From contig OZ014412.1 in assembly GCA_963965975.1 (NCBI GenBank), forward strand, positions 8,928,708 through 8,992,707: a stretch of 64,000 nucleotides of DNA. The letters run 5' to 3'. Of this stretch, positions 2,086-61,096 are shown piece after piece. Position 1 is the first letter of the stretch. Every line of letters starts with the position of its first letter. A program made the translations under genes and the position numbers. Below the pieces are notes generated by a model. It ran no database searches. It was not told where the DNA came from and saw only the letters and a list, made by a program, of their open reading frames with translations. The DNA is from Xestospongia bergquistia. Taxonomy: Eukaryota; Porifera; Demospongiae; Haplosclerida; Petrosiidae.

Positions 2086-2489
2086 GCTTGGTGTATTAAC
2101 AATGTTTTTTAAAACAGACTGTACAGGGAATTTGGCTTTTAAATAGTTTATATCAGTTCCTAATAACAAAAAAAGTGAATTTTAAAGATTTATGGTTAAA
2201 ATAGAAATATGGATTCAAATTTGTAAGTTTGCTTGTATAATTAATTTTGAATCTTATTTTCTAACCTGTTATATGTCATGCCTAATTCAAAGGATTTGTT
2301 AGCTACTCATTACGTCACAGGTTGGTTACCTTGGATATAATGATACACATGATCCAAAAGCAATATCGTAGGATTACTTCATATGCCAGGTGGTAAAAGT
2401 AAATTCAATAACTGGTTGTGACATGTTAAGAAATTATAATAATATTAGTAATGTAATTGTGGTTATGTTAACACTATATGTACATACAG

Positions 2490-3709
2490 GTTCAAGAAGA
2501 CTTTCTGAACACATGTGGCTAAATGTGATGTGTGATGACAACTTAATGACAAAATTACCCAGTAAAATATTGCACTATGAAAAAGTTGGATACGCTCTTA
2601 GGTTAACAGAAGCTGATATAAAGGCAATTCAAGAGAATAATCATGATGAAGAACTTAGAAGAAAATCTGTCTTGCAGAAATGGAAAGAAAGAAATGGAAG
2701 TCATGCTACATATTTTGCCTTAAAAGAAGCATTTCTTAGTGAACTAGTAAATGATCGTGAGACTGCTGAGTTTATTGAGGACTATGCGAAAGAACATTAC
2801 GGTATGAAATTGTCAATCTGTGGGCCAGTTTCATCATATCCTATGGCTGATTCTAGAGTTACAACAGTCTCTTTAGTCCGTACAATAAATGGACTAGGTC
2901 GACCTCATGGAGTTGCTATGGCCAATGAAGGCCACATTATAATAACTGAGAGTTATAGAAACTCCATTAAAGTTATAAAGGAGGACGGTTCAATTTTGAG
3001 TTCTTTTTTTGTTGGCAAATGTCCTCGTGGTGTAGCTGTTACACAAGATAATTGCATTCTTGTAGCTGTTGAACAGGAGCATAAAATCTATAAAATGAGC
3101 TTTGAGGGTAAAGTTATGGCATATGCTGGTTGTGATCAAGAAAGTAGTGGACAAATAGAGTTCTATTCTCCTTATGGTGTTTCTGTATCTCCTCTTACTG
3201 GGCTTGTCTATGTAGCAGATACTTACAACAATAGAGTACGAGTATTGAATGACAACTTGGAATTCTTATATGACCTTAGCTGTAATGATGCAAGCCCAAA
3301 ACAATTAACATTTAAAGAACCAAATGACGTGGCGTTTGACAAAGAAGGTTTCATATATGTGACCGACACTTGGAATAATTGTGTAAAAAAGTTTACTCCA
3401 GAGGGATATTTTGTCGATGAATTTGGTCACCGGGGAACTGATCCTGGACAACTTCGCTTACCAGAAGGTGTTACCATAGCTGATAATGATCTAATGTACA
3501 TTACAGAGCATAGTAATTATCGTGTCAGTGTTTTTACAATTAATGGTGAATTTGTCCATACCTTTGGCAAAGAAGGCAGAGGGGATAATGAATTTTATTG
3601 GCCTCGTGGAATAGCAGTTGACAAAGCCAGATCTCTCCTTTATATTTGTGACCATGTTAATAGTAGAGTGGTAGTGTATAGTATAAATGACAATACAACA
3701 CAAGATTGA
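2490..3709 (+). CDS. Death domain + NHL-repeat beta-propeller protein
   Basis: The supported exon starts after a splice acceptor (ACATACAG) at 2490 and ends with a stop at 3709. Residues about 1-105 form a Death domain (LNVMCDDNLMTKLP, LRLTEADIKAIQEN, VLQKWKERNGSHATYFALK, AEFIEDYAKEHYG), the module used for homotypic signalling with other death-fold proteins. The rest is a run of about six NHL repeats with the expected motifs (RPHGVAMANEGHIIITE, PYGVSVSPLTGLVYVADTYN, EPNDVAFDKEGFIYVTDTWN, WPRGIAVDKARSLLYICDH), giving a beta-propeller that usually binds protein or RNA. There is no RING or B-box, so this is not a TRIM ubiquitin ligase. A tiny first exon (ATG at 2383, donor at 2390) would join in phase, but this is inferred. 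Shortened paralogue at 60179-61096. Confidence 0.85.
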
Positions 3710-15868: not shown

Positions 15869-17110
15869 GGTACCATAACACAGTTTCATCTCTCACCTAC
15901 TTATGAATACAATTTTGATCAGATAAGAGCAAAATTGGGAGACCTTTTGTTGTGGTGTCACCTCTTATTGAGTCAACTGTTATGTCCAAATTTTGAAAAA
16001 GGTTAAGACATTTCCTTTGAATGTGCTTCCCAAAATAAAACCTCAGTTGTATTTAACTGAATCATTTGATGCATAAATGTAGTATGAGAGAAATGTACCA
16101 TGATCAATGTCGCTTGCTTGGAGGCTAATGTTGAGCATTTAAAGATTGAAAATGCTGAAACTCAAATTACATCCTACCCTTGCTAAAAGAGTACTACTTA
16201 ATTAAGTAAAAAAGGGCAACTCCATCATTGTGACGTACTGCATGTGCTTCAGCTACATAGTTGATGTTTTAGTGATTGAAGTTAAAATGAAACTTGAGAT
16301 GCTGAAAGAGATGGGATTAATTAAAGTCACTTTTATGTAATATACCATTTGGGATCTACATGCTAGGAATAAGACATAATTTTTAATAATATTACAGAAG
16401 AAAGAACCCTTGAGGAGGAGATTGTTTCATTGATAAATATATCAGTTGAGAAAGATCAGCAACTATTGGAACTGAAATCATTTTTGGAACAGTCAGATAA
16501 AATGAGTAGAATGAAGACATTGGAGATTGAGCAATTGACAAAAGTTACAAAAGGTTATTTATATTCTGTGAGTAGTACATAATATATATCATATAATGTA
16601 TAATTTGAAATGATAGATATTAAATATATTAGGACTGTTGTATTTTGTATATATAGCATGAAGTAATTACAATCACAGATGAGTCCAGATGAGTGCTTGT
16701 CTCTGTTAACTAGTTCACATACTCTTCACATAATAGAACTTTACCATCATTCACCTCATAGTGTTGGAGCTGTTCTTGGACATTTATCAAAAGTACTACC
16801 TTTTAAACCCTTAAAATTCACCAGAGTAAAGTGAAGGCTTTCATGACCTCCTAACAACTTGACTTTTCTCTCATCTCAAATCACTTGAATTTGTTACTTG
16901 AATTATGTTTTGTGAAGTTGTCAAACTCAGTGTGTGTAAAAGTGAGGACTTTATGCCAGATTAATCCTCTCGTCTTAGATGTGAAACTATTGAGTTCATT
17001 TTGGAATGGAAGATTGTGTAAAATTTGTGTAAAGAGGGTGATGGTTTTCTCTCACATTCTCAAGATATTTTCACACAAATTCAGAGGCTACAATTTTAAA
17101 ATAAGTTAAT
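15869..17110 (+). pseudogene. Family E pseudogene with chimeric LRR junction (E3)
   Basis: Degenerate copy of the gene E central exon. It starts after an acceptor at 15869 with PTYEYNFDQIRAKLGD-like coding, then frameshifts. It jumps from the 'ITSY' point (near 16170) straight to the later AKRVL/GNSIIVT part, losing about 160 bp relative to gene E. A coiled-coil exon copy follows at 16396-16555 (EEEIVSLINISVEKDQQLLE). From about 16680 comes an LRR fragment (LTSSHTLHIIELYHH) fused near 16900 to a second piece of the E domain (VKLSVCKSEDFMPD). Multiple stops make it non-coding. The LRR-to-E junction recurs at 21150-21500. Confidence 0.8.
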
Positions 17111-19212: not shown

Positions 19213-19810
19213 AGCCAAACTTTTTTCTAAATGATTTGTTACAATACAATAAACAATAATGAATAAACAGTTTGTTGTTAATAATAAAAATAATTAGGTA
19301 AAACTACTAAATTTTGAACACAGTAGTTTTTATATTTTTTTAAATAACTTTTTAATGATTCATAGCTAGATTAAATAAGTAAGTGGTTTTGCCTGTTACG
19401 TTTTGATCAAAAATTGCTGGCATCTCTCTAAGAAATCTTTATAATAGATCTGTGGGCAGGCTCTTTCAGTCTTTTCATGTGACAGTGAATAGCAAAAAAA
19501 TTCATCTAAACATGTTCCATTCAAAGTTAAGTAAAGCCCACAAAATGTATTAATTAATTTTTGGTATTATCACTGTTCTATCCTACATGAAGTAATAATG
19601 GAGGAATGGGTAATATGAATATATATATAACAAGAATTACTGCTAAATATTCCCATTTATATCATTACTTTATTTATTGGTCAAATCATAAGCATATTTA
19701 GCTTCTTTGTTTATTCTAAATCTTTATATTCTGTAACTACAAATATTTTGGACATCACCTTCACAAGGATAGTAAACTTAAGAAGAAAAGTGGTAGTGTA
19801 GGTCTTGTTT
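19213..19810. other. Spacer, no gene seen
   Basis: AT-rich sequence after the Death exon. No coding or structural signal was noticed. Confidence 0.4.
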
Positions 19811-22148
19811 TAACAGAGGGAATCATCACTAAGGAGACACAAAGTCAAGAGTTCTGGGGGCACTCTATCAGATAATCCATTGAGAGCATGGCTTACTAAA
19901 TTATCTGAGAACCCAAGTATATTGGGAGTACTTGCTAGAATTTTATCATAATCAGAAGATACAATACAAATTATGTACTCAAAGTGTATGGTAAGTGGTT
20001 AATGTGATCATTATTTCATATAGAGAGGAAAGATTTCCCAAATAAAGCTCATCAGGTAAGTTGTTATGTACTTTATACTTTAAGTATGCTTGTAAAGTTG
20101 CTTGAATGTCATATATAATAAATCTTTTCTACATGGCTCTACTTTGCTGTGTATGAACACTGATCCTCACACTCGTTACCTTAAACATTGTATTATCATA
20201 TGTAATCTGAACGAAAAATCACTTTTCTTTCATAACGTAGTTGTAATACCATTCATCATAGTACTCAAGTTATACCAGCTTGTCTTGTATTCAATATGCA
20301 TTGTAATTATTTTCTTTTATAGGTACCATAACACAGTTCATCTCTCACCTACTTATGAATACAATTTTGATTGGATAAGAGCAAAATTGGGAGACCTTTT
20401 TTGTGGTGTCACCTCTTCTTGAGTCTGCTGTTATGTCCAAATTTTGAAAGAGCTTAAGACATTTCCTTTGAATGTGTTTCCCAGAATTAAAACATCAATT
20501 GTATTTAACTGAATCATTTGATGATGTTATGGATATAGTATGAGAGAAATGTACCATGATTAATGTCACTTGCTTTGAGACTATTGTTGAGTATTTAAAG
20601 ATTGAAAATGCTGAAACTGAAATTACATCCTACCCTTGCTAAAAGAGTACTAGTTAATTAAGTAAAGAAGGGCAACTCCATCATTGTGACATACTGTGCT
20701 TCATGCTACATAGTTGATGTTTTAGCGATCAAAGTTAAAATGAAACTTGACTTGCTGAAAGAGATGGGATTAATTAAAGTTACTTTTAAGTAACATACCA
20801 TTTGGGGATCTACATGCTAGGGATAAGGTATAAGACAGCATTATTAATAACTTAATTTTTAATAATAATACAGGAGAAAGAACTCTTGAGAAGGAATTGT
20901 TTAATTGATAAATATATGAGTTAAGAAAGATCAGCAACTATTGGAACTGAAATCACCTTTGGAACAGTCAGATAAAATGAATAGAATTAAGACATTTGGA
21001 GATTGAGCAGTTGACAAAAGTTACAAAAGGTTAGTTATATTCTGTGAGTAGTACATAATATGTATCATAGAATGTATAATTTGAAATGACAGATATTAAA
21101 TATATAGGACTGTTGTATTTTGTATATGTAGCATGAAGAAATTACACTTGGTTCAGATGAGTGTGTGTCTCTGTTAATTAGTTCACATACTCTTCACATA
21201 ATAGAACTTTACCAACTTTAACCTCATAGTGTTGGAGCTGTTCTTGGACATTTATCAAAAAAGTACTACCTTTTAAACCCTTAAAATTCACCAGAGTAAA
21301 GTGAAGGCTGAGTTTTTTCATGACCTCCTAACAACTTTACCTTCCTCTCATCTCAAATCACTTGAATTTATTACTTGAATTACGTTTTGTGAAGTTGTTA
21401 AACTCAGTGTGTGCGAAAATGAGGACTTCATACCAGATCCATCCTCTCTTCTTAGATGCGAAACTATTGAGTTCGTTTTGGAATGGAAGATGGATGAACA
21501 CACACTTTGTGAAATAAACGATCTGTTATGGAACACATTGAATGTATGGCTAAAGTTTTAGTTAAAGAAGTAAAGAAAAGGAACTCCATCATTGTAACAT
21601 GCTATGCTTCATCCTATATGTAGTTGATATTTTACTAATCAAAGTTAAAATGAATCTTGGCATACTGAAAGAGATGTGATTAATAAAAATCACTATTGGT
21701 TATCATACCATTTGGGATCTACATGCTAAGGATAAGGTATAAGACAATATTTTTCATAGTATTAAACATATTTTTTTAATAATACAGGAGATGAGAGCTC
21801 TTGAAGAGGAGATTGTTTCATTAAGAAATATACCAGTTGAGAGAGATCAGCAACTATTGGAGCTGAATTCATCTTTAGAACACTCAGAAAAAACGAGTAA
21901 AAAGAAGACACTAAAGATTGAGCAGTTGACAAAAGTTACAAAAGGTTAGTTATGTTCTGTGAGTAATACATAATATATATCATATAGTGTATAATTTGAA
22001 ATGATAGATTTTAAATATATTAGGAATGTTGTACTTTGTATATGTAGTATAAAGTAAATACAGTTACTATTGTCTATGTAGGTTATGTGATTGACGAGAC
22101 AAGAAAAGAAAAAGAAAAGATAAAACATTTAATTAAACACTTAGAAGG
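19811..22148 (+). pseudogene. Family E pseudogene, two overlapping partial copies (E2)
   Basis: At 19811-19990 is a relic of the gene E CARD-like exon (TEGIITKET-like coding with stops, matching 56640-56830). At 20322-20830 is an E-domain copy with the same internal deletion as E3, followed by a coiled-coil exon relic (20876-21030). At 21140-21360 is a broken LRR segment (SDECVSLLISSHTLH) fused to a second E-domain piece (21370-21740: VCENEDFIPDPSSLLRCETI, FVLEWKMDEHTL). Then come a well-kept coiled-coil exon (21788-21943: ALEEEIVSLRNIPVERDQQL) and a small exon at 22081-22148 (VIDETRKEKEKIKHL) with a good donor. It is non-coding overall. It appears to be two successive copies, one nested in the duplication history of E3. 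Confidence 0.78.
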
Positions 22149-43561: not shown

Positions 43562-46500
43562 TTAGAATCCATAGCGATCAGGTGGGTGTCTTTCACGTAT
43601 AGGATATCTTCGACTTCCATCTTGTGCAGGTGTCTCTTGCTTAGACGTAGGCACGTTTTCAGATGTTGAAGGTAAATCAGAGTCTTTGTGCTCGTAATCC
43701 CAGTCATTGCTCTTATTTATTTTAAGTTGATTTGCATGTCGTTTCCATACTCCATGCTTGACTTGGACTAAGTAGGTAATTCCTCCAATCTGTCTGGTAA
43801 TCTTGCCAGGAATCCATTTAGGTTGGCTACGGTAGTTCCTTACGAGTACTTGGTTTCCAACACTAAATTTTCTCTTGCTTGTATGCAGGTCATAATGCTT
43901 TTTCTGATTAGCTTTTGCTTGTTGTACTGTTTGATTTGGTGATTGGAGAGGGTGAATCAAATCTAATTTTGTTTTGAGGTGTCGTTTCATCAAAAGTTCA
44001 CATGGTGGTATTCCTGTTGTACAGTGGGGTGTGATGCGGTATGTGAGTAGAAAATTTCTAAGTGCTGGTTTCACTGCCTTTCCTCCTTGCTTAGCTTTCT
44101 GCATGGCAGATTTAAAAGTTTGAACAAATCTCTCAGCTTCCCCATTTGACTGTGGGTGATATGGAGGAGAAAGCACATGATCAATACCTCTTGATTTGCA
44201 AAAATCTTCAAATTCTCGAGAGATAAATTGTGGACCATTATCTGATATAATTTGCTCACATAGTCCATGTGTAGTAAAAACATCTAGCATCATCTCCACA
44301 GTAGCTTCAGTACTTGCTTTCTTTGTAGGGATCACTATTGGCCATTTAGAGTGTGCATCAATGATGATGAACCACATCATCTCAAGAAATGGGCCAGCAT
44401 AGTCAATATGTAAACGTTGCCAAGGTCTCTGTGGATATTGCCATTGATGAAGTGGAACTTTAGCAGGATCTCTCGACAATTCTGAGCATTCTTTGCAATT
44501 GTTGCTAGTTTCTTCAATTTCATCATCCAGTTTTGGCCACCAGAAATGTGAACGTGCTAGCATCTTCATTTTTACTTTTCCCAAATGAGTTTCATGGAGT
44601 GCTTGTAGTAGTGATGTTTGATGACTCTTAGGAATAACTACTCGCATTCCCCAAAGAAGACAACCATTTAGTACTGTAAGCTCATGTCTTCTGCGGAAAT
44701 ATGGTTGCAAGGTCTCATTCTGGATTTGATTAGGCCAGCCATTGAGTGTGTGATATTTCACTGATCTCAGTATAGGATCCTTGGCAGTCTCTCGTGCAAT
44801 GTCACCAGCCTTCAAAGGAAGATCCTGTATTTGTTCTTCGTGTATATTTTGTACTACACAAATCCTTCCAGGATCTAGAGAATCAAAAGCTTTGTCAGGA
44901 CCAGCAGGCAAACGTGAAAGTCCATCAGCATTTCCAAACTGTTTGGTGCTTTTGTATTCAATCTCAAATGAGTAGCCCATGAGAATAATTGACCAGCGTT
45001 GAAGACGGCTTGCTGTAGTTGTTGGAATACCTTTCTTTCCACCAAAAATTGTTGTCAATGGTTTGTGATCTGTTTGAATTGTGAAATGTCGACCCCATAG
45101 GTATTGGTGGAACTTCTTTATTCCATAAATGATGGAAAGTGCTTCACGCTCTATCTGAGAATAATTTCTCTCTGCTGGTGTTAGAGTTTTCGAGGCATGA
45201 GCTATCGCTCGCTCAGTTTTGTCAGGATATCGATGGAAGATGACAGCACCCACACCAATGGATGATGCATCTGCAGCAAGAAATAAAGGTAAGGATGGAT
45301 CATAGTGTGCCAAAGCTTCTGTTGAGACTAATTCTTTTTTTATTCTGTCAAATACGTCTTGACAGCTATTGGTCCATGACCAAGGTTGCTCCTTCTGCAG
45401 CAATTTATTGAGAGGGGCACACATCTCACTGAGATTGCACAGAAATTTTCCGTAATGGTTGACCATTCCAAGGAAAGAACGTAGTTGATGTTGGTTTCTG
45501 GGCTTAGGCATTTCCACTATTCCTTTGACCTTCTTTGGAGAGACATGGATTCCATTCTTGTCCACAATATGTCCTAGGTATTCTACGGAGTCTTGCATGA
45601 ATGAACATTTCTCTTTGCGTACTTGGAAACCATATTCCTGTATCTTGGCCAGTACTCGTTCCAAGTTTTGGAGGTGCTCTACATCAGATTTCCCTGTGAC
45701 AACGATATCATCAAGGTAGCAGACAACGCCAGACAATCCCTGTAACATTGTTTCCATTGTTTGCTGAAAAATGGCAGGGGCTGCGGCAATCCCAAAGGGA
45801 AGGCGTGTATACTGGTACAGGCCCAAGTGTGTCGAAATCACCATGAAATTCCGAGACTCATCATCAAGTTCCAGCTGCAAGTAGGCATCAGAAAAATCCA
45901 ATTTTGTGAATTTACAGCCACCATTAAGAGCAGTAAACAGTTCTTCTGGTCGTGGCAAAGGGTACTGATTAATGTTGAGCTGAGGATTAACTGTCACACT
46001 GAAATCTCCACAAATTCTTACAGCTTTTGAAGGTTTTGGTACCACAACAATGGGTGTAGCCCAATCTGAGTGTTCAACTTTCTGTAGAACTCCATTATGG
46101 ACGAGTCTTTGAATATCCATTTCAACAGCAGGCTTCAGGGCAAATGGTAGTGGTCTGGGTTTGAAGAATCGAGGCTGAGCATCACTTTTGAGTGTGAGGT
46201 GGACCTTATGTTTCGTGCAATGTCCAAGACCTTCTTGGAAAACTTTGGCGTACCGTCTCATAATACCTACTAGTGCCTGACTGTTATTGCTTATATTGAC
46301 ATGGTTGACATGATAGAGATGATTTAGGTCCAATTTGAGTGCCTCAATCCAGCTGCGTCCCAATAGATCAAGTCGATTTCCTTTTGTGACAGTAATTGGA
46401 AGATTACAAGATTTACCATCACATTGAACGCTAACCTGGCAATCTCCCAGCAAGGGAATATCATCCTCTGAGTAATTCTGTAGACGAACTGCTGGGGGAT

Positions 46501-47458
46501 CCAACTGGGGGCTTCCAATTCTTTTCCAAGTTGCTTCACTAATGAGTGTAATGCTTGCTCCTGTATCAAGTTGCAACTTTACTGTTTTTTCATTGAGTTT
46601 GACTGAAACAAAAACAGGTTTGCTTGGGGAGCTGGAGTTGACAGTAAGAACAACTGTACAGCGTTCAGATTCTTCTGCTGCATTGATAACATTAGTTCGG
46701 TTCTTTGGTAGATAGTGCTTGCTTTTCCCTGAGTGTTGTTTGTGTCTATCCCTACACACTCTTGCCAGGTGACCCATGCGCTTGCAGCATGAGCAGACAG
46801 TGTTGCGATGGAGACATGCAGAACGCCAATGGTCCTTTGCACCACAGGATGGACAGGGTCCTGGTGGAAGTGTCTTCGGTGTTGAACGCTTTGAAGGCGT
46901 TTTAACAATACTCACAGAATTCGAAGTTTGAACTGTGATTTCATTTGCTTCCTTTCCTGCAGCTTCCATATTTTGTGCAATCGAGATTGCCTTGTCCAGA
47001 GTGAGGTCCTTCTCGGAAAGCAGCTTGCGTGCTATATTTTCATCACGAAGGCCCAATACAAAAGCAGTGCACAAGGCATCTGGGAGATACTCTCCTGGAA
47101 ACTCACAAGTTGAAGCCATTTTACGTAAGGAGGAAATGTAATCAGCAAGGCTCTGCGATGGTCCTTGAGTGTTCCTCCAAAAACGATATTGTTCTGCAAT
47201 TTTTAGTCGTTTAGGTTCGAAATGTGCAGTTAGCCTTTTGAACAAATCGTCACTCTTGAAGATTTCAGGCTTTTCAGGGAACACGAGACTTTCCAGGATT
47301 TCATAAGTCTCTGCTCCAATCAGTGCAATGATGCAAGAAGTCTTCTTATCCTCTGTGATCTCATTCACTCTGAGGAAGTGTTCAAACTGAGTCTGATAGC
47401 TTGACCACTTTTGAGTGCGATGATCAAAAGGTCCTGGGGAGCCAATGTAACTAGCCAT
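43562..47458 (-). CDS. Ty3/gypsy Gag-Pol polyprotein, intact
   Basis: Uninterrupted frame; I prefer the ATG at 47458 (MASYIGSPG, 1298 residues), because the upstream ATG at 47506 lies in the LTR and would read through the primer-binding site. Domain order: Gag capsid-like region. Then two CCHC zinc knuckles (CPSCGAKDHWRSAC, CSCCKRMGHLARVC). Then aspartic protease (LQLDTGASITLIS). Then reverse transcriptase with catalytic YLDD (VVCYLDDIVVTG). Then RNase H (FLAADASSIGVGAV, TIQTDHKPL). Then integrase with a zinc-binding HHCC region, and catalytic Asp, Asp and Glu in HIDYAGPF, ISDNGPQF and QSNGEAERF. Then a GPY/F-like tail. Gag and Pol are fused without frameshift or stop. All key catalytic residues are visible, so this copy may be active. 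Confidence 0.95.
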   Translation of the reverse strand: MASYIGSPGPFDHRTQKWSSYQTQFEHFLRVNEITEDKKTSCIIALIGAETYEILESLVFPEKPEIFKSDDLFKRLTAHFEPKRLKIAEQYRFWRNTQGPSQSLADYISSLRKMASTCEFPGEYLPDALCTAFVLGLRDENIARKLLSEKDLTLDKAISIAQNMEAAGKEANEITVQTSNSVSIVKTPSKRSTPKTLPPGPCPSCGAKDHWRSACLHRNTVCSCCKRMGHLARVCRDRHKQHSGKSKHYLPKNRTNVINAAEESERCTVVLTVNSSSPSKPVFVSVKLNEKTVKLQLDTGASITLISEATWKRIGSPQLDPPAVRLQNYSEDDIPLLGDCQVSVQCDGKSCNLPITVTKGNRLDLLGRSWIEALKLDLNHLYHVNHVNISNNSQALVGIMRRYAKVFQEGLGHCTKHKVHLTLKSDAQPRFFKPRPLPFALKPAVEMDIQRLVHNGVLQKVEHSDWATPIVVVPKPSKAVRICGDFSVTVNPQLNINQYPLPRPEELFTALNGGCKFTKLDFSDAYLQLELDDESRNFMVISTHLGLYQYTRLPFGIAAAPAIFQQTMETMLQGLSGVVCYLDDIVVTGKSDVEHLQNLERVLAKIQEYGFQVRKEKCSFMQDSVEYLGHIVDKNGIHVSPKKVKGIVEMPKPRNQHQLRSFLGMVNHYGKFLCNLSEMCAPLNKLLQKEQPWSWTNSCQDVFDRIKKELVSTEALAHYDPSLPLFLAADASSIGVGAVIFHRYPDKTERAIAHASKTLTPAERNYSQIEREALSIIYGIKKFHQYLWGRHFTIQTDHKPLTTIFGGKKGIPTTTASRLQRWSIILMGYSFEIEYKSTKQFGNADGLSRLPAGPDKAFDSLDPGRICVVQNIHEEQIQDLPLKAGDIARETAKDPILRSVKYHTLNGWPNQIQNETLQPYFRRRHELTVLNGCLLWGMRVVIPKSHQTSLLQALHETHLGKVKMKMLARSHFWWPKLDDEIEETSNNCKECSELSRDPAKVPLHQWQYPQRPWQRLHIDYAGPFLEMMWFIIIDAHSKWPIVIPTKKASTEATVEMMLDVFTTHGLCEQIISDNGPQFISREFEDFCKSRGIDHVLSPPYHPQSNGEAERFVQTFKSAMQKAKQGGKAVKPALRNFLLTYRITPHCTTGIPPCELLMKRHLKTKLDLIHPLQSPNQTVQQAKANQKKHYDLHTSKRKFSVGNQVLVRNYRSQPKWIPGKITRQIGGITYLVQVKHGVWKRHANQLKINKSNDWDYEHKDSDLPSTSENVPTSKQETPAQDGSRRYPIRERHPPDRYGF

Positions 47459-47487
47459 CGTAATGGTATCCCACCCTCGTCGCCAAT

Positions 47488-47770
47488 TGTGATGTAGAGT
47501 AGACACTTGTGATTAGTATTAAGAGTATATCAGAACAACCATGAGGAAAACAGCAAATAGAATTATAACAACACTCAATCTACTAGACACATATGGCAAT
47601 GAGTATTTATACAAAATCAAAAGATGAGAAGGGCTCTAGAATGTTCTAGTAACTAATTTAAGAACATGTGGTGCAGCCCTAGTACAGATAAAATGAGAGT
47701 TTACAATAATTAACAAGGGCTATAGACATGATAAATAAACATTCACATAATAAGTCTATAGTACACTACA
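47488..47770 (-). repeat. 5' LTR
   Basis: 283 bp. Promoter-bearing LTR for the minus-strand element; its transcription would run antisense to NLR-C. Confidence 0.96.
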
Positions 47771-56409: not shown

Positions 56410-56568
56410 ATGGCAGAAAGAGAAGAACAATTGTATCATAGTATAAATAGTCACTAGCTAGAGCTCTCAAAGAAATTGGAGAAGTTTCCACTGCTAACAA
56501 TGTTATAAAATCATTAAGTGAGAAAACACATAGACATTTGCAATTTAAAATTGTTTATTTTCAAACAG
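56410..56568 (+). promoter_or_regulatory. Candidate first exon / promoter side of gene E
   Basis: An ATG at 56410 opens MAEREEQLYHSINS before a stop. One base over, a frame continues LKEIGEVSTANNVIKSL to a GT donor near 56517. I could not build a frame-consistent first exon, so the gene E start is open. About 90 bp separates this ATG from the divergent NLR-B2 start, suggesting a shared bidirectional promoter. Confidence 0.35.
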
Positions 56569-59500
56569 AAACTTGTAAAATGTTACAGAAATGTTTTGAT
56601 GAACTTATGCCTGATCCTATTCCTATGGAAGTATCCAAGTTATTATGTACAGAGGGAATCATTTCTAAGGAGACATTTCATGAAGTGGAGAGTTCTGGGG
56701 GCTCATTACCAGATAGTCCATTGAGAGTACTGTTTACTAAATTATCTGAGGATCCTAACATATTGGGAGTACTTGCTAGAGTTTTATCAGAAGATACAAT
56801 ACGTGTAGCAAAATATATACTTAAAGTGTATGGTGAGCAATTTAAATTCAAAGAAATGTGATCATTATTTCATATACAGAGGAAAATTTTCCCAAAGCCC
56901 CTTTACAAGCATCAGGTAGGTTAATTGTTATTGTACTTTGTACTTTAAATATGTAAAGATGTTTGAATGTTGTAATAAACTATTCTACATGACTCTACTT
57001 TGCTGTGTATGAAATGAACACAGATCCTCACACTCATTAACTTAAAGGCTTAGACATTATATTATCATTAAAAAACTATGTAATCTGAATAAATAATCAC
57101 TTTTCTTTAATAATGTAGTTGTTCCTTTCAGATGCTACCACTCATCACAATACTCAAGCTATATCAATGACTGTCCAAAGTCAGTCTATGTGGTATTCAA
57201 TGTGTATTGTAATAATTTTCTTTTATAGGTACCATAACACAGCTTCATCTCTCACCTACTTATAAATGTGATTTTGATCAAATAAGAGCAAAATTGGGAG
57301 AACTTTTTCTTGTGGTGTCACCTCTTATTGAATCTGCTGTTACATTGAAAGATCTCAAAAGATATCTTCGATTGTGTTTCCCAGAGTTAAAACCTCAATT
57401 ATCTTTAGCTGAGTCATTTGATGATGTTATGGATGTAGTACGAGAGAAATGTACCATAATTAATGTCGCTTGCTTGGAGGCTATCGTTAAGCATTACAAG
57501 ATTGAAAATGCTGAAACTCAAATTAGATCCTACAAGTTGGAAGTTGATACATTCTGTGAATTTGTCAAAGTCAGTGTGTGTGAAAATGAGGACTTCATGC
57601 CAGATTCATCCTCTCTTCTTAAATGTGAAACTATTGAGTTCGTTTTGGAATGGAAGATGGATGAACACACACTTCGTGAAATAAACGATCTCTTATGGAA
57701 GGCATTTGGAAGTATGGCTAAAAGAGTTTTAGTTAAAGAAGTAAAGAAAGGGAACTCCATCATCGTGACCTGCTATGCCTCATGCTATGTAGTTGATGTT
57801 TTAGTGATTGAAGTTAAAATGAAACTTGACATATTGAAAGAGATGGGATTAATTAAAGTCACTATTGGGTACTATACTATTTGGGATCTACATGCCAGGG
57901 ATAAGGTATAAGCAATATTATTTGTAGTAATTTTAAAAAATAATATAGGAGATAAGAAGTCTTGAGGAGGAGATTGTTTCATTGAGAAATATAACAGTTG
58001 AGAAAGATCAGCAACTAATGGAGCTGAAGTTATCTTTTGAACAGTCAGAAAAAATAAATAAAATGAAGACATTGGAGATTGAGCAATTGAAAAAAGGTAT
58101 AAAAAGTTAGTTATATTCTGTGAGTAGTATATAATATGTATCATATAGTGTATAATTTGAAACGATAGATTTTAAAAATATTAGGACTGTTGTATTTTGT
58201 ATATGTAGTATAAAACAATTACAATTACTGCTGTCTATATAGGTACTGTGATTGACAAGTCAAAAAAAGATAAAGAAGAGACAGAACAATTAACCAAACA
58301 CTCAGAAGGTAAGCTGTAATTAATAGTTAGCATAATATTAATATTTTAAAATTAATTGTTTTTTATTAAAAAGTTTGAATATGTTAGGAGTATTGTAGTC
58401 TTTATATGTAGTATGAAGTAATTACAAAATACTGCTATCTATATAGGTACTGTGATTGATGACTCAGGAAAAGAAAAAGAAGCAATTGAACAGTTAACCA
58501 AACACTCAGAAGGTAAGCTGTAATTAATAGTTAGCATAGTACTATTGTGTCCCTCCCTTTTTGTTTATATATATAGTATATCTTTCTATTTTTAACCTTG
58601 CACAATATCAGGCATGTGGTAGCAGTGCCTATGTAAGGATAACTCTGGATTGTCCATTGAAATGTATTGGCAGAAAACAATGAATATATCACTAGAGAAC
58701 TAAAAATAGATTTTTGTCACATCATTGTAGTTTTCATGAAAGAAGTAGATTAGAGTCCTTGGAAATGTAGTAATAGATAATTATTTTCAAAAAAAAATCA
58801 TGTGCGAAAGATTGGTCTTCAATGATTGTCATAGGTAATTCTACAAAAAGAAATTATAATTTATGATTTAAAAGACTTCTCATATACTATATTATTTACA
58901 TTATCAATTCATTTAAAAAATATATATAATATACATGTGCTATAGATATGATTATACAAGATGTTATTGTTTACTTTATATTGAAATTATAATGACTAGT
59001 GTACTATTGTTTTCTTTAATATAGTCACAGCAGTGTGATCTTAGTCTAGCAACATTAAATTAAAGTGTAAACATTTTACTTTCCCTTGACATAATATGCC
59101 ATTAGTTCAATACTTCTATAATCAACATATTGTATAAAACTACTTATTCATTCATTGAGCAATATCTCAATTGCCCGTTATAATAGATTTCAAATTTTAT
59201 TGTTTATTACTTTGATCTCTAGATATTGATTCAAAATATTCTCAAACTAATCCTGAGAGCTCAAGTCTGCCTAAAGAACACGTGGCTATGCAATATTACA
59301 AAAGTTATAAAGGTAATGTTCAACCCTTATATGTACATTTCATGTTTCTACCTACAAAAGACATTCTGACCATTAGTTTGTTATTACTAATATTAATTTA
59401 TACAATTACACATATTTCATACTTGTTCGTACATTCAAGAATGTACCATGTAAAAAAAACTTACAATGTAAATGTTCATACATAAAAGATTGCATAATTT

Positions 59501-59713
59501 TCAAGTCTGTACAATTTACATAATTACATGTGTTTTGTAGTTGCAGCTACAGATAACTAAAGAATATTGCAACAAAAGCACTTTACAATATTAGTATATA
59601 AATACATATACAAATGTAATATATTATTTACATTATTGTTTATTTTAGAGTGGGACAAAAAAGATGAATGCTTTCAAACAGCTAAAGCAAAGCCATCATT
59701 AAATAAAATATAA
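56569..59713 (+). CDS. Gene E: CARD-like + unassigned domain + coiled coil
   Basis: Apparently intact multi-exon gene. Inferred exons: 56569-56832 (CARD-like: LMPDPIPMEVSKLLCTEG, DPNILGVLARVLSEDTI), 56880-56915, 57132-57179, 57229-57905, 57949-58096, 58243-58308, 58447-58512, 59223-59312, 59649-59713 (stop). All introns are phase 1 except the one after 57905 (phase 0). The 677-bp exon encodes about 225 residues I cannot name. The first half is helical (DFDQIRAKLGELF, LSLAESFDDVMDVVREKC, NVACLEAIVKHYKIENAETQ). The second half has VCENEDFMPDSSSLLKCETI, then GNSIIVTCYASCYVVDVLVI and MGLIKVTIGYYTIWD. It then has a coiled coil (LEEEIVSLRNITVEKDQQLM) and two near-identical 22-residue exons. The 59223 exon resembles NLR-C exon 2. 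There is no NACHT or LRR. The role is probably a death-fold adaptor or sensor, which is inference. Confidence 0.75.
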
Positions 59714-60178: not shown

Positions 60179-61096
60179 ACAGGGAATTTGTCAATCTATG
60201 GGCCTTCAATGCAAGTTTCATCATACCCAATGGCTGATTCTAGAGTTACAACAGTCTCTTTAGTCCATACAATAAATGGAGTATATCAACCTCATGGAGT
60301 TGCTGTGGCCAACGATGGCCACATTATAATAACTGAGAATCATAATAACTCCATTAAAGTTATAAAGGAGGATGGTTCAATTTTGAGGTCTTTTTTTGTT
60401 GGGAAATGTCCTCGTGGTGTAGCTGTTACACAAGATAATTGTATTCTTGTAGCTGTTGAACAGGAACATAAAATCTATAAAATGAGCTTTGAGGGTGAAA
60501 TTATGGCACGTGTTGGTTGTGATCAAGAAAGTAGTGGACAAACAAAGTTCTATTGTCCTTATGGTGTTTCTGTATCTCCTCTTACTGGGCTTATCTATGT
60601 TGCAGATACTTACAACAATAGAGTACGAGTATTGAATGACAACTTGGAATTCTTATATGACCTTAGATGTAATGATGCAAGCCCAAAACAATTAACATTT
60701 AAACAACCAAATGATGTGGCATTTGACAAACATGGTTTTATATATGTGACCGATACTTGGAATAACAGTGTAAAAAAGTTTACTCCAGAGGGATATTTTG
60801 TCGATGAATTTGGTTACCTGGGAACTGATCCTGGACAACTTTGCTTACCAGAAGGTATTGTCATAGCTAATAATGATCTAATGTACATTACAGAGCATCT
60901 TAATTATCGTGTCAGTGTTTTTACAGTTAATGGTGAATTCATCCATACCTTTGGCAAAGAAGGCAGAGGGGATAATGAGTTTGATTGGCCTCGTGGAATA
61001 GCAGTTGAGAAAGCGAGATCTCTCCTTTATATTTGTGACCATATTAATAGTAGAGTGGTAGTGTATAGTATAAATGACAATACAACACAAGATTGA
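60179..61096 (+). CDS. NHL beta-propeller paralogue lacking the Death domain
   Basis: The propeller is open and closely matches 2812-3709 (QPHGVAVANDGHIIITENHN, CPYGVSVSPLTGLIYVADTY, QPNDVAFDKHGFIYVTDTWN, WPRGIAVEKARSLLYICDH). The bases that hold the Death exon in copy 1 (2133-2812) are missing. The join reads GGGAATTTGTCAATC, fusing former intron or 5' sequence to the propeller. A frame exists upstream to an ATG at 60131 (MWIVLYCVNNVF), but it derives from non-coding sequence in copy 1. Either a propeller-only protein with a new start is made or this is a young pseudogene. The substitutions seen leave the propeller open. Confidence 0.6.
   Translation, partial: TGNLSIYGPSMQVSSYPMADSRVTTVSLVHTINGVYQPHGVAVANDGHIIITENHNNSIKVIKEDGSILRSFFVGKCPRGVAVTQDNCILVAVEQEHKIYKMSFEGEIMARVGCDQESSGQTKFYCPYGVSVSPLTGLIYVADTYNNRVRVLNDNLEFLYDLRCNDASPKQLTFKQPNDVAFDKHGFIYVTDTWNNSVKKFTPEGYFVDEFGYLGTDPGQLCLPEGIVIANNDLMYITEHLNYRVSVFTVNGEFIHTFGKEGRGDNEFDWPRGIAVEKARSLLYICDHINSRVVVYSINDNTTQD

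Follow-up and report, generated by a model that had tools for sequence, protein, structure and literature searches.

The question raised by this locus is what kind of protein is encoded by a gene that lies within a cluster of NLR genes and whose central exon could not at first be placed in any domain family. The gene, here called gene E, lies on the forward strand of a 64,000-nucleotide stretch of the sponge Xestospongia bergquistia (the window; G000:C2:8928708-8992707 in a genome of 146 Mb and 21 contigs). The original prediction described the central exon as one new domain, joined to a CARD-like module upstream and a coiled coil downstream, and proposed that the product is an adaptor or sensor partner of the NLRs. 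In this study, exon anatomy, fold predictions, the pairing of exons and the size of the family were obtained from the sequence or by computation. The central exon most likely encodes two modules, a death-fold bundle followed by a TRADD-N-like fold, rather than one new domain, and gene E probably encodes a 496-residue adaptor with, in order, a CARD, a linker, a death-effector domain (DED)-like bundle and a TRADD-N-like domain, ending in a short helical tail.

Gene E and the modules it encodes

Gene E was modeled at the DNA level as ten coding exons separated by nine GT-AG introns (56410-59713). The joined model is 1491 nt long, encodes 496 residues and contains a stop only at its end; as judged from DNA alone, the gene is genuine. 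The borders first given for the central exon (57229-57905) were exact and the stop at 59713 agrees; a first exon carrying the ATG (56410-56440) and two short linker exons were added. The splice signals of exons 1-5 are kept, and their frames are open, in four further copies of the gene on the same contig (C2). The features are as follows.

56410-56440, forward strand: exon 1, ATG start (MAEREEQLYH), GT donor, in-frame join to exon 2
56569-56832, forward strand: exon 2, divergent CARD
56880-56915, forward strand: exon 3, linker, AG and GT present in all five C2 copies
57132-57179, forward strand: exon 4, linker, AG and GT present in all five C2 copies
57229-57905, forward strand: exon 5, two modules, splice signals present in all five C2 copies
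57255-57584, forward strand: first half of exon 5, predicted six-helix death-fold (DED-like) bundle, domain residues 10-119
57612-57887, forward strand: second half of exon 5, predicted TRADD-N-like beta-alpha-beta-beta-alpha-beta fold, domain residues 129-220, with GNS at residues 175-177
57949-58096, forward strand: exon 6, 49-residue heptad-like segment
58243-58308, forward strand: exon 7, 66-nt repeat exon, copy 1
58447-58512, forward strand: exon 8, 66-nt repeat exon, copy 2
59223-59312, forward strand: exon 9, less certain, AG, GT and frame present here, unaligned in the other four C2 copies
59649-59713, forward strand: exon 10, less certain, AG acceptor, TAA ending at 59713, outside the loci compared

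Exon 1 is aligned and open in all five C2 copies, with the L004 version 9 nt shorter. Exon 5 is bordered by ttttatag/GTACCA at 57229 and GATAAG/gtataagc at 57905, and one frame is open throughout. No named domain was found ahead of the stop of gene E.

The structure model of exon 5 contains a confident six-helix bundle followed by a beta-alpha-beta-beta-alpha-beta fold, which agrees with the earlier description of a helical first half and a second half of another kind. The idea of one unplaceable domain does not survive, since the model and profile evidence points to a DED-like bundle and a TRADD-N-like fold. The nearest structure to the bundle is a viral FLIP death-effector domain; the resemblance to FLIP MC159, a tandem-DED protein, is one of fold only, with 14% identity and no RxDL motif. 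The RxDL motif is a feature of DEDs. By eye, neither A1 (the window exon and 62 of 120 listed proteins) nor A3 (the window exon, 14 of 16 distant members and 10 proteins) shows the motif in the helical region of its consensus, and for this reason the bundle is named only DED-like.

The second half was modeled with four core strands and two main helices, predicting the two-layer RRM/ACT-like arrangement with kinked helices that is a feature of the TRADD-N superfamily. The Pfam family matched by the most members is NCOA6_TRADD-N (PF13820), found in 13 of the 63 at E <=5 with a best E of 9.8e-4, the scores shown falling below the curated cut-off. The six proteins with displayed ranges (4 of 10 in one scan, 2 of 10 in another) place the match within the second half, against profile positions 11-83. 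A whole-genome search with PF13820 returned four places, again under the cut-off (E 0.18-0.46), all of them in exons of this family, and the profile matched 2 of the 10 distant members scanned (10 of 16). In addition, the beta2-beta3 turn of TRADD-N domains bears a conserved Ser, in some cases Cys, that mostly follows a tiny residue, according to the parts of PMC8195603 (eLife 2021) on which we draw here and below. The corresponding Ser, S177, is conserved in at least 90% of the 63 close members. The turn of the 16 distant members, inspected by eye, contains Ser in 11, Cys in one and neither in four; conservation of S177 falls below 90% in A3, and the preceding residue is usually Asn (GNS) whereas the published one is usually tiny. 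Direct searches gave less: exon 5 alone returned weak, unrelated matches only in Pfam, NCBIfam and PDB sequences, the A1 profile had none in PDB sequences at E 0.001 (its best matches were weak), and Foldseek by itself had none at E 0.001.

The exon upstream encodes a divergent CARD, and the predicted death-fold module joined upstream of exon 5 is thus borne out by a CARD profile in relatives and a CARD fold model. Pfam CARD was matched in 9 of the 27 rows of A2 (the window exon and 26 of 30 CARD loci), with a best E of 2.8e-4, the window's own copy being unmatched. The six-helix model of exon 2 has modest confidence (66.7), and the first 14 of its 36 structure matches are death-fold entries: 12 have CARD in their titles, and the CED-4/CED-3 and Apaf-1-caspase-9 holoenzymes make up the remainder. 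The A2 profile found no PDB sequence at E 0.001 and touched NLRP1 chains at E 0.76.

The evidence for a coiled coil in gene E is weak. Exon 6 is weakly heptad-like, with 64% hydrophobic residues at the a and d positions, a value reached by 267 of 5000 shuffles; this much of the originally predicted downstream coil stands. It is lost once the two 66-nt exons are included (0.37, reached by 2965 of 5000 shuffles), and a coil spanning all the repeat exons, which are out of register, was rejected. These two exons lie in a 118-nt direct repeat, 87% identical, with a spacing of 204. Tandem arrays were also observed within 1.5 kb downstream of the domain exon at 6 of 30 loci (L006, L007, L009, L010, L011 and L018). 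For example, at L007:2583-3381 a 115-base unit is repeated 6.9 times with 97% matching, and its consensus comprises a 63-nt frame-neutral exon (21 residues, the length of three heptads) and a 52-nt intron. The helical tail could grow by whole exons in such arrays. A narrow literature search for tandem duplication of coiled-coil exons in sponges found none, which does not imply absence from print.

The family across the genome

Exon 5 has at least 163 matches genome-wide, some partial or stop-containing. Pairing and co-location were calculated from 150 of these 163, from 150 CARD exons and from 94 of 95 NACHT places (one under the cut-off was dropped), and the resulting counts are lower bounds. 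Of the 150 listed domain exons, 131 are preceded on their own strand by a CARD exon no more than 3 kb away, and a domain exon lies downstream of 130 of the 150 listed CARD exons, the nearest at 31-1096 bases. Among the same exons there was no case of the reversed order (domain exon within 3 kb upstream of the CARD) and none on opposite strands within 3 kb. Judged by sequence, the CARD and domain exon pair is a genome-wide unit. Pfam CARD alone recovered 16 places over its cut-off in the genome, whereas the family's own CARD exon gave 150 scored matches from 303 candidates; only two of these overlap the 22 Pfam-CARD places, both under the Pfam cut-off. Genome searches for Ankyrin, Death and kinase domains scored the best 150 of 6319, 150 of 983 and 127 of 1263 candidates, and no counts were drawn from them.

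The family shows an architecture of one to three Death-like domains, then TRADD-N, then a variable C-terminus. Downstream domains were sought in seven pieces chosen by eye from 25 loci. MATH, Hsp70 and PDZ exons lie within 1.5 kb downstream of three other members and, from this distance, would belong to the same genes. The pieces at L006, L024 and L027 had no Pfam match, and a ZU5-like reading of the L019 exon, made by eye, was dropped as Pfam gave nothing at E 0.01. P0140, with CARD and domain in one frame, was not used as proof of fusion; by eye, its join resembles a short intron read through.

The listed domain exons are found mainly on contigs C3 (60) and C4 (49), together 109 of 150. NACHT places are found mainly on C2 (29 of 94), C10 (22) and C1 (14), with 12 on C3 and C4 together. 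Within 10 kb of a NACHT place there are 6 of 150 domain exons against 1.2 expected, and within 20 kb there are 8 against 1.85. All six of the former are in the C2 cluster, and the 10-kb excess derives wholly from local tandem copies. Thus, the partnership with NLRs that the original prediction drew from location fails genome-wide: the co-location with NLR genes expected of a dedicated NLR adaptor is confined to one cluster, and partnership with the local NLRs is not supported by location.

Copies of gene E and other readings

The layout of gene E is that of an adaptor, as originally proposed, with a CARD, a DED-like bundle and a TRADD-N-like fold and no recognized sensor or enzyme before the stop, and an adaptor role is likely. 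The same domains could serve the opposite role, that of a tail-only decoy or brake which has neither sensor nor effector end and caps CARD or DED assemblies. This is rather unlikely. It would fit the MATH, Hsp70 and PDZ exons near other members, set against no named domain in gene E, and the weak constraint on the domain exon, for which the ratio of nonsynonymous to synonymous rates (dN/dS) is 0.43-0.65 in 8 of the 10 pairs among the five C2 copies, 1.38 in one and 0 in a near-identical pair. In several pairs the CARD exon shows 6-10 nonsynonymous and no synonymous changes, with an alignment that is unsure at a 6-nt indel; this excess may reflect diversification or an alignment effect of the indel. 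Dead relatives also share the window, at least two as first reported:

15869-17015, forward strand: decayed relative 1, fragments of the domain matched by tblastn and interrupted by in-frame stops
19804-21739, forward strand: decayed relative 2, matched by tblastn in fragments, several of them interrupted by in-frame stops; a stop-containing CARD fragment (19804-19972) precedes domain fragments with in-frame stops (about 20336-21739)

However, all five copies have exons 1-5 intact, and identity to the window copy is 95.6-99.9% for the domain exon against 83-99.6% for the whole aligned locus. Because of this, gene E is not simply decaying. The exons after exon 6 are less conserved or unaligned in the other four copies, and the donor of exon 6 is GT in three of the five and TT in two, perhaps through an alignment shift. 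One copy, L002 (G000:C2:9054425-9055105 and flanks), is a near-identical duplicate, 99.6% over 3075 aligned bases. Two NACHT places recur at about the same offset of 68 kb, so the pair probably arose by recent segmental duplication. Elsewhere in the window, a GC-richer patch at 43562-47512 (reverse strand) contains a 1316-residue open frame, which by eye we take to be a retroelement polyprotein (zinc knuckle, reverse transcriptase and integrase-like motifs).

Several results weigh against the TRADD-N identity of the second half. First, FcoT thioesterase matched 10 of the 63 members with a best E (9.6e-5) better than that of TRADD-N, and its two places genome-wide (E 0.006 and 0.068) are both within this family. 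Secondly, aspartokinase ACT domains scored a Z slightly above TRADD-N. Third, neither the PF09034 (vertebrate TRADD_N) profile, run against the family sequences, nor hhalign of the family with human TRADD, a single sequence, gave a match. We consider it improbable that the second half is instead another ferredoxin/ACT-like fold, or a hot-dog (FcoT) fold, with a small molecule or lipid as its ligand. In the scores shown FcoT stays below its cut-off, and it was absent from the 10 distant members scanned, where PF13820 was found in two; the identity was set aside, though recurrent. The four core strands and two main helices are unlike a hot-dog fold, and the dyad of death fold and second half, with its Ser turn, suits TRADD-N proteins. 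Vertebrate TRADD_N belongs to a clade distinct from the NCOA6 clade (PMC8195603).

It is more doubtful still that the protein in fact ends in the NHL beta-propeller encoded by an exon at 60183-61096, which would make gene E a CARD, DED-like, TRADD-N, helix and propeller sensor. An in-frame join to an acceptor at 60183, open through to the end of the NHL frame, can be made from exons 1-6, 1-7, 1-8 or 1-9 (1-5 alone fail), and each of the five C2 copies has an NHL exon a few kb downstream. The NHL copy near the window start (2372-3709) carries a fused Death domain, and for most of the matching stretch of this copy, about 0.7 kb, nothing corresponding is present beside gene E. Proteins of other animals in which beta-propellers follow TRADD-N have been published (PMC8195603). 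Against this, gene E ends in a last exon and stop of its own, and the in-frame join is near chance because 7 of 27 AG sites give an open join. In addition, the 99.6% identical duplicate has its NHL match as two overlapping pieces in different frames, and the NHL copies at C2:8829723 and 8836490 are more than 70 kb from the nearest listed domain exon. Least probable is a history in which the C2 branch was drawn into the NLR cluster, co-duplicating with Death, NACHT and NHL exons, with gene E (its NHL neighbour minus Death) splicing into NHL to give a new CARD, DED-like, TRADD-N and propeller receptor.

Known relatives and proposed role

In the parts of PMC8195603 cited, NCOA6-clade TRADD-N domains are expanded to 357 proteins in Amphimedon, mostly with one to three Death-like domains, TRADD-N and a variable C-terminus, for which MATH and PDZ are named in sponges and HSP70 in a bivalve. 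Gene E is like these proteins in its order of Death-like domains and TRADD-N, its hundreds of family copies and its beta2-beta3 Ser, and unlike them in its helical tail with no named domain; the parts cited make no specific mention of this locus. It also resembles the DED-TRADD-N proteins of amphioxus, bivalves and cnidarians described there, in which a death-fold bundle directly precedes TRADD-N, with an extra CARD in front and a bundle that is DED-like by predicted fold only. Vertebrate TRADD shares a TRADD-N-like fold and a death fold in one protein of adaptor layout, but in reversed order (TRADD-N first, Death last) and with no sequence match to the family.

As an adaptor, the product of gene E would join, through its CARD and DED-like bundle, a death-fold assembly begun by another protein (an NLR, a caspase or another CARD or DED protein). 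The face of the TRADD-N sheet bearing the Ser turn would hold or free the flanking parts and dock a partner, and the helical tail may confer multivalency. The partners and any immune use are presumptive, and the switching is taken by analogy from the proposal in PMC8195603 that TRADD-N keeps flanking domains inactive and that the Ser mediates the switch.

The TRADD-N family of which gene E is a copy is very large and of a kind in print since 2021 (PMC8195603 as cited). The identity of a seemingly new domain is largely resolved: behind a divergent CARD there is, most likely, a dyad of a DED-like bundle and a TRADD-N-like fold. Since Pfam CARD misses most CARD exons of this family, surveys that use Pfam alone may undercount the death-fold genes of sponges.
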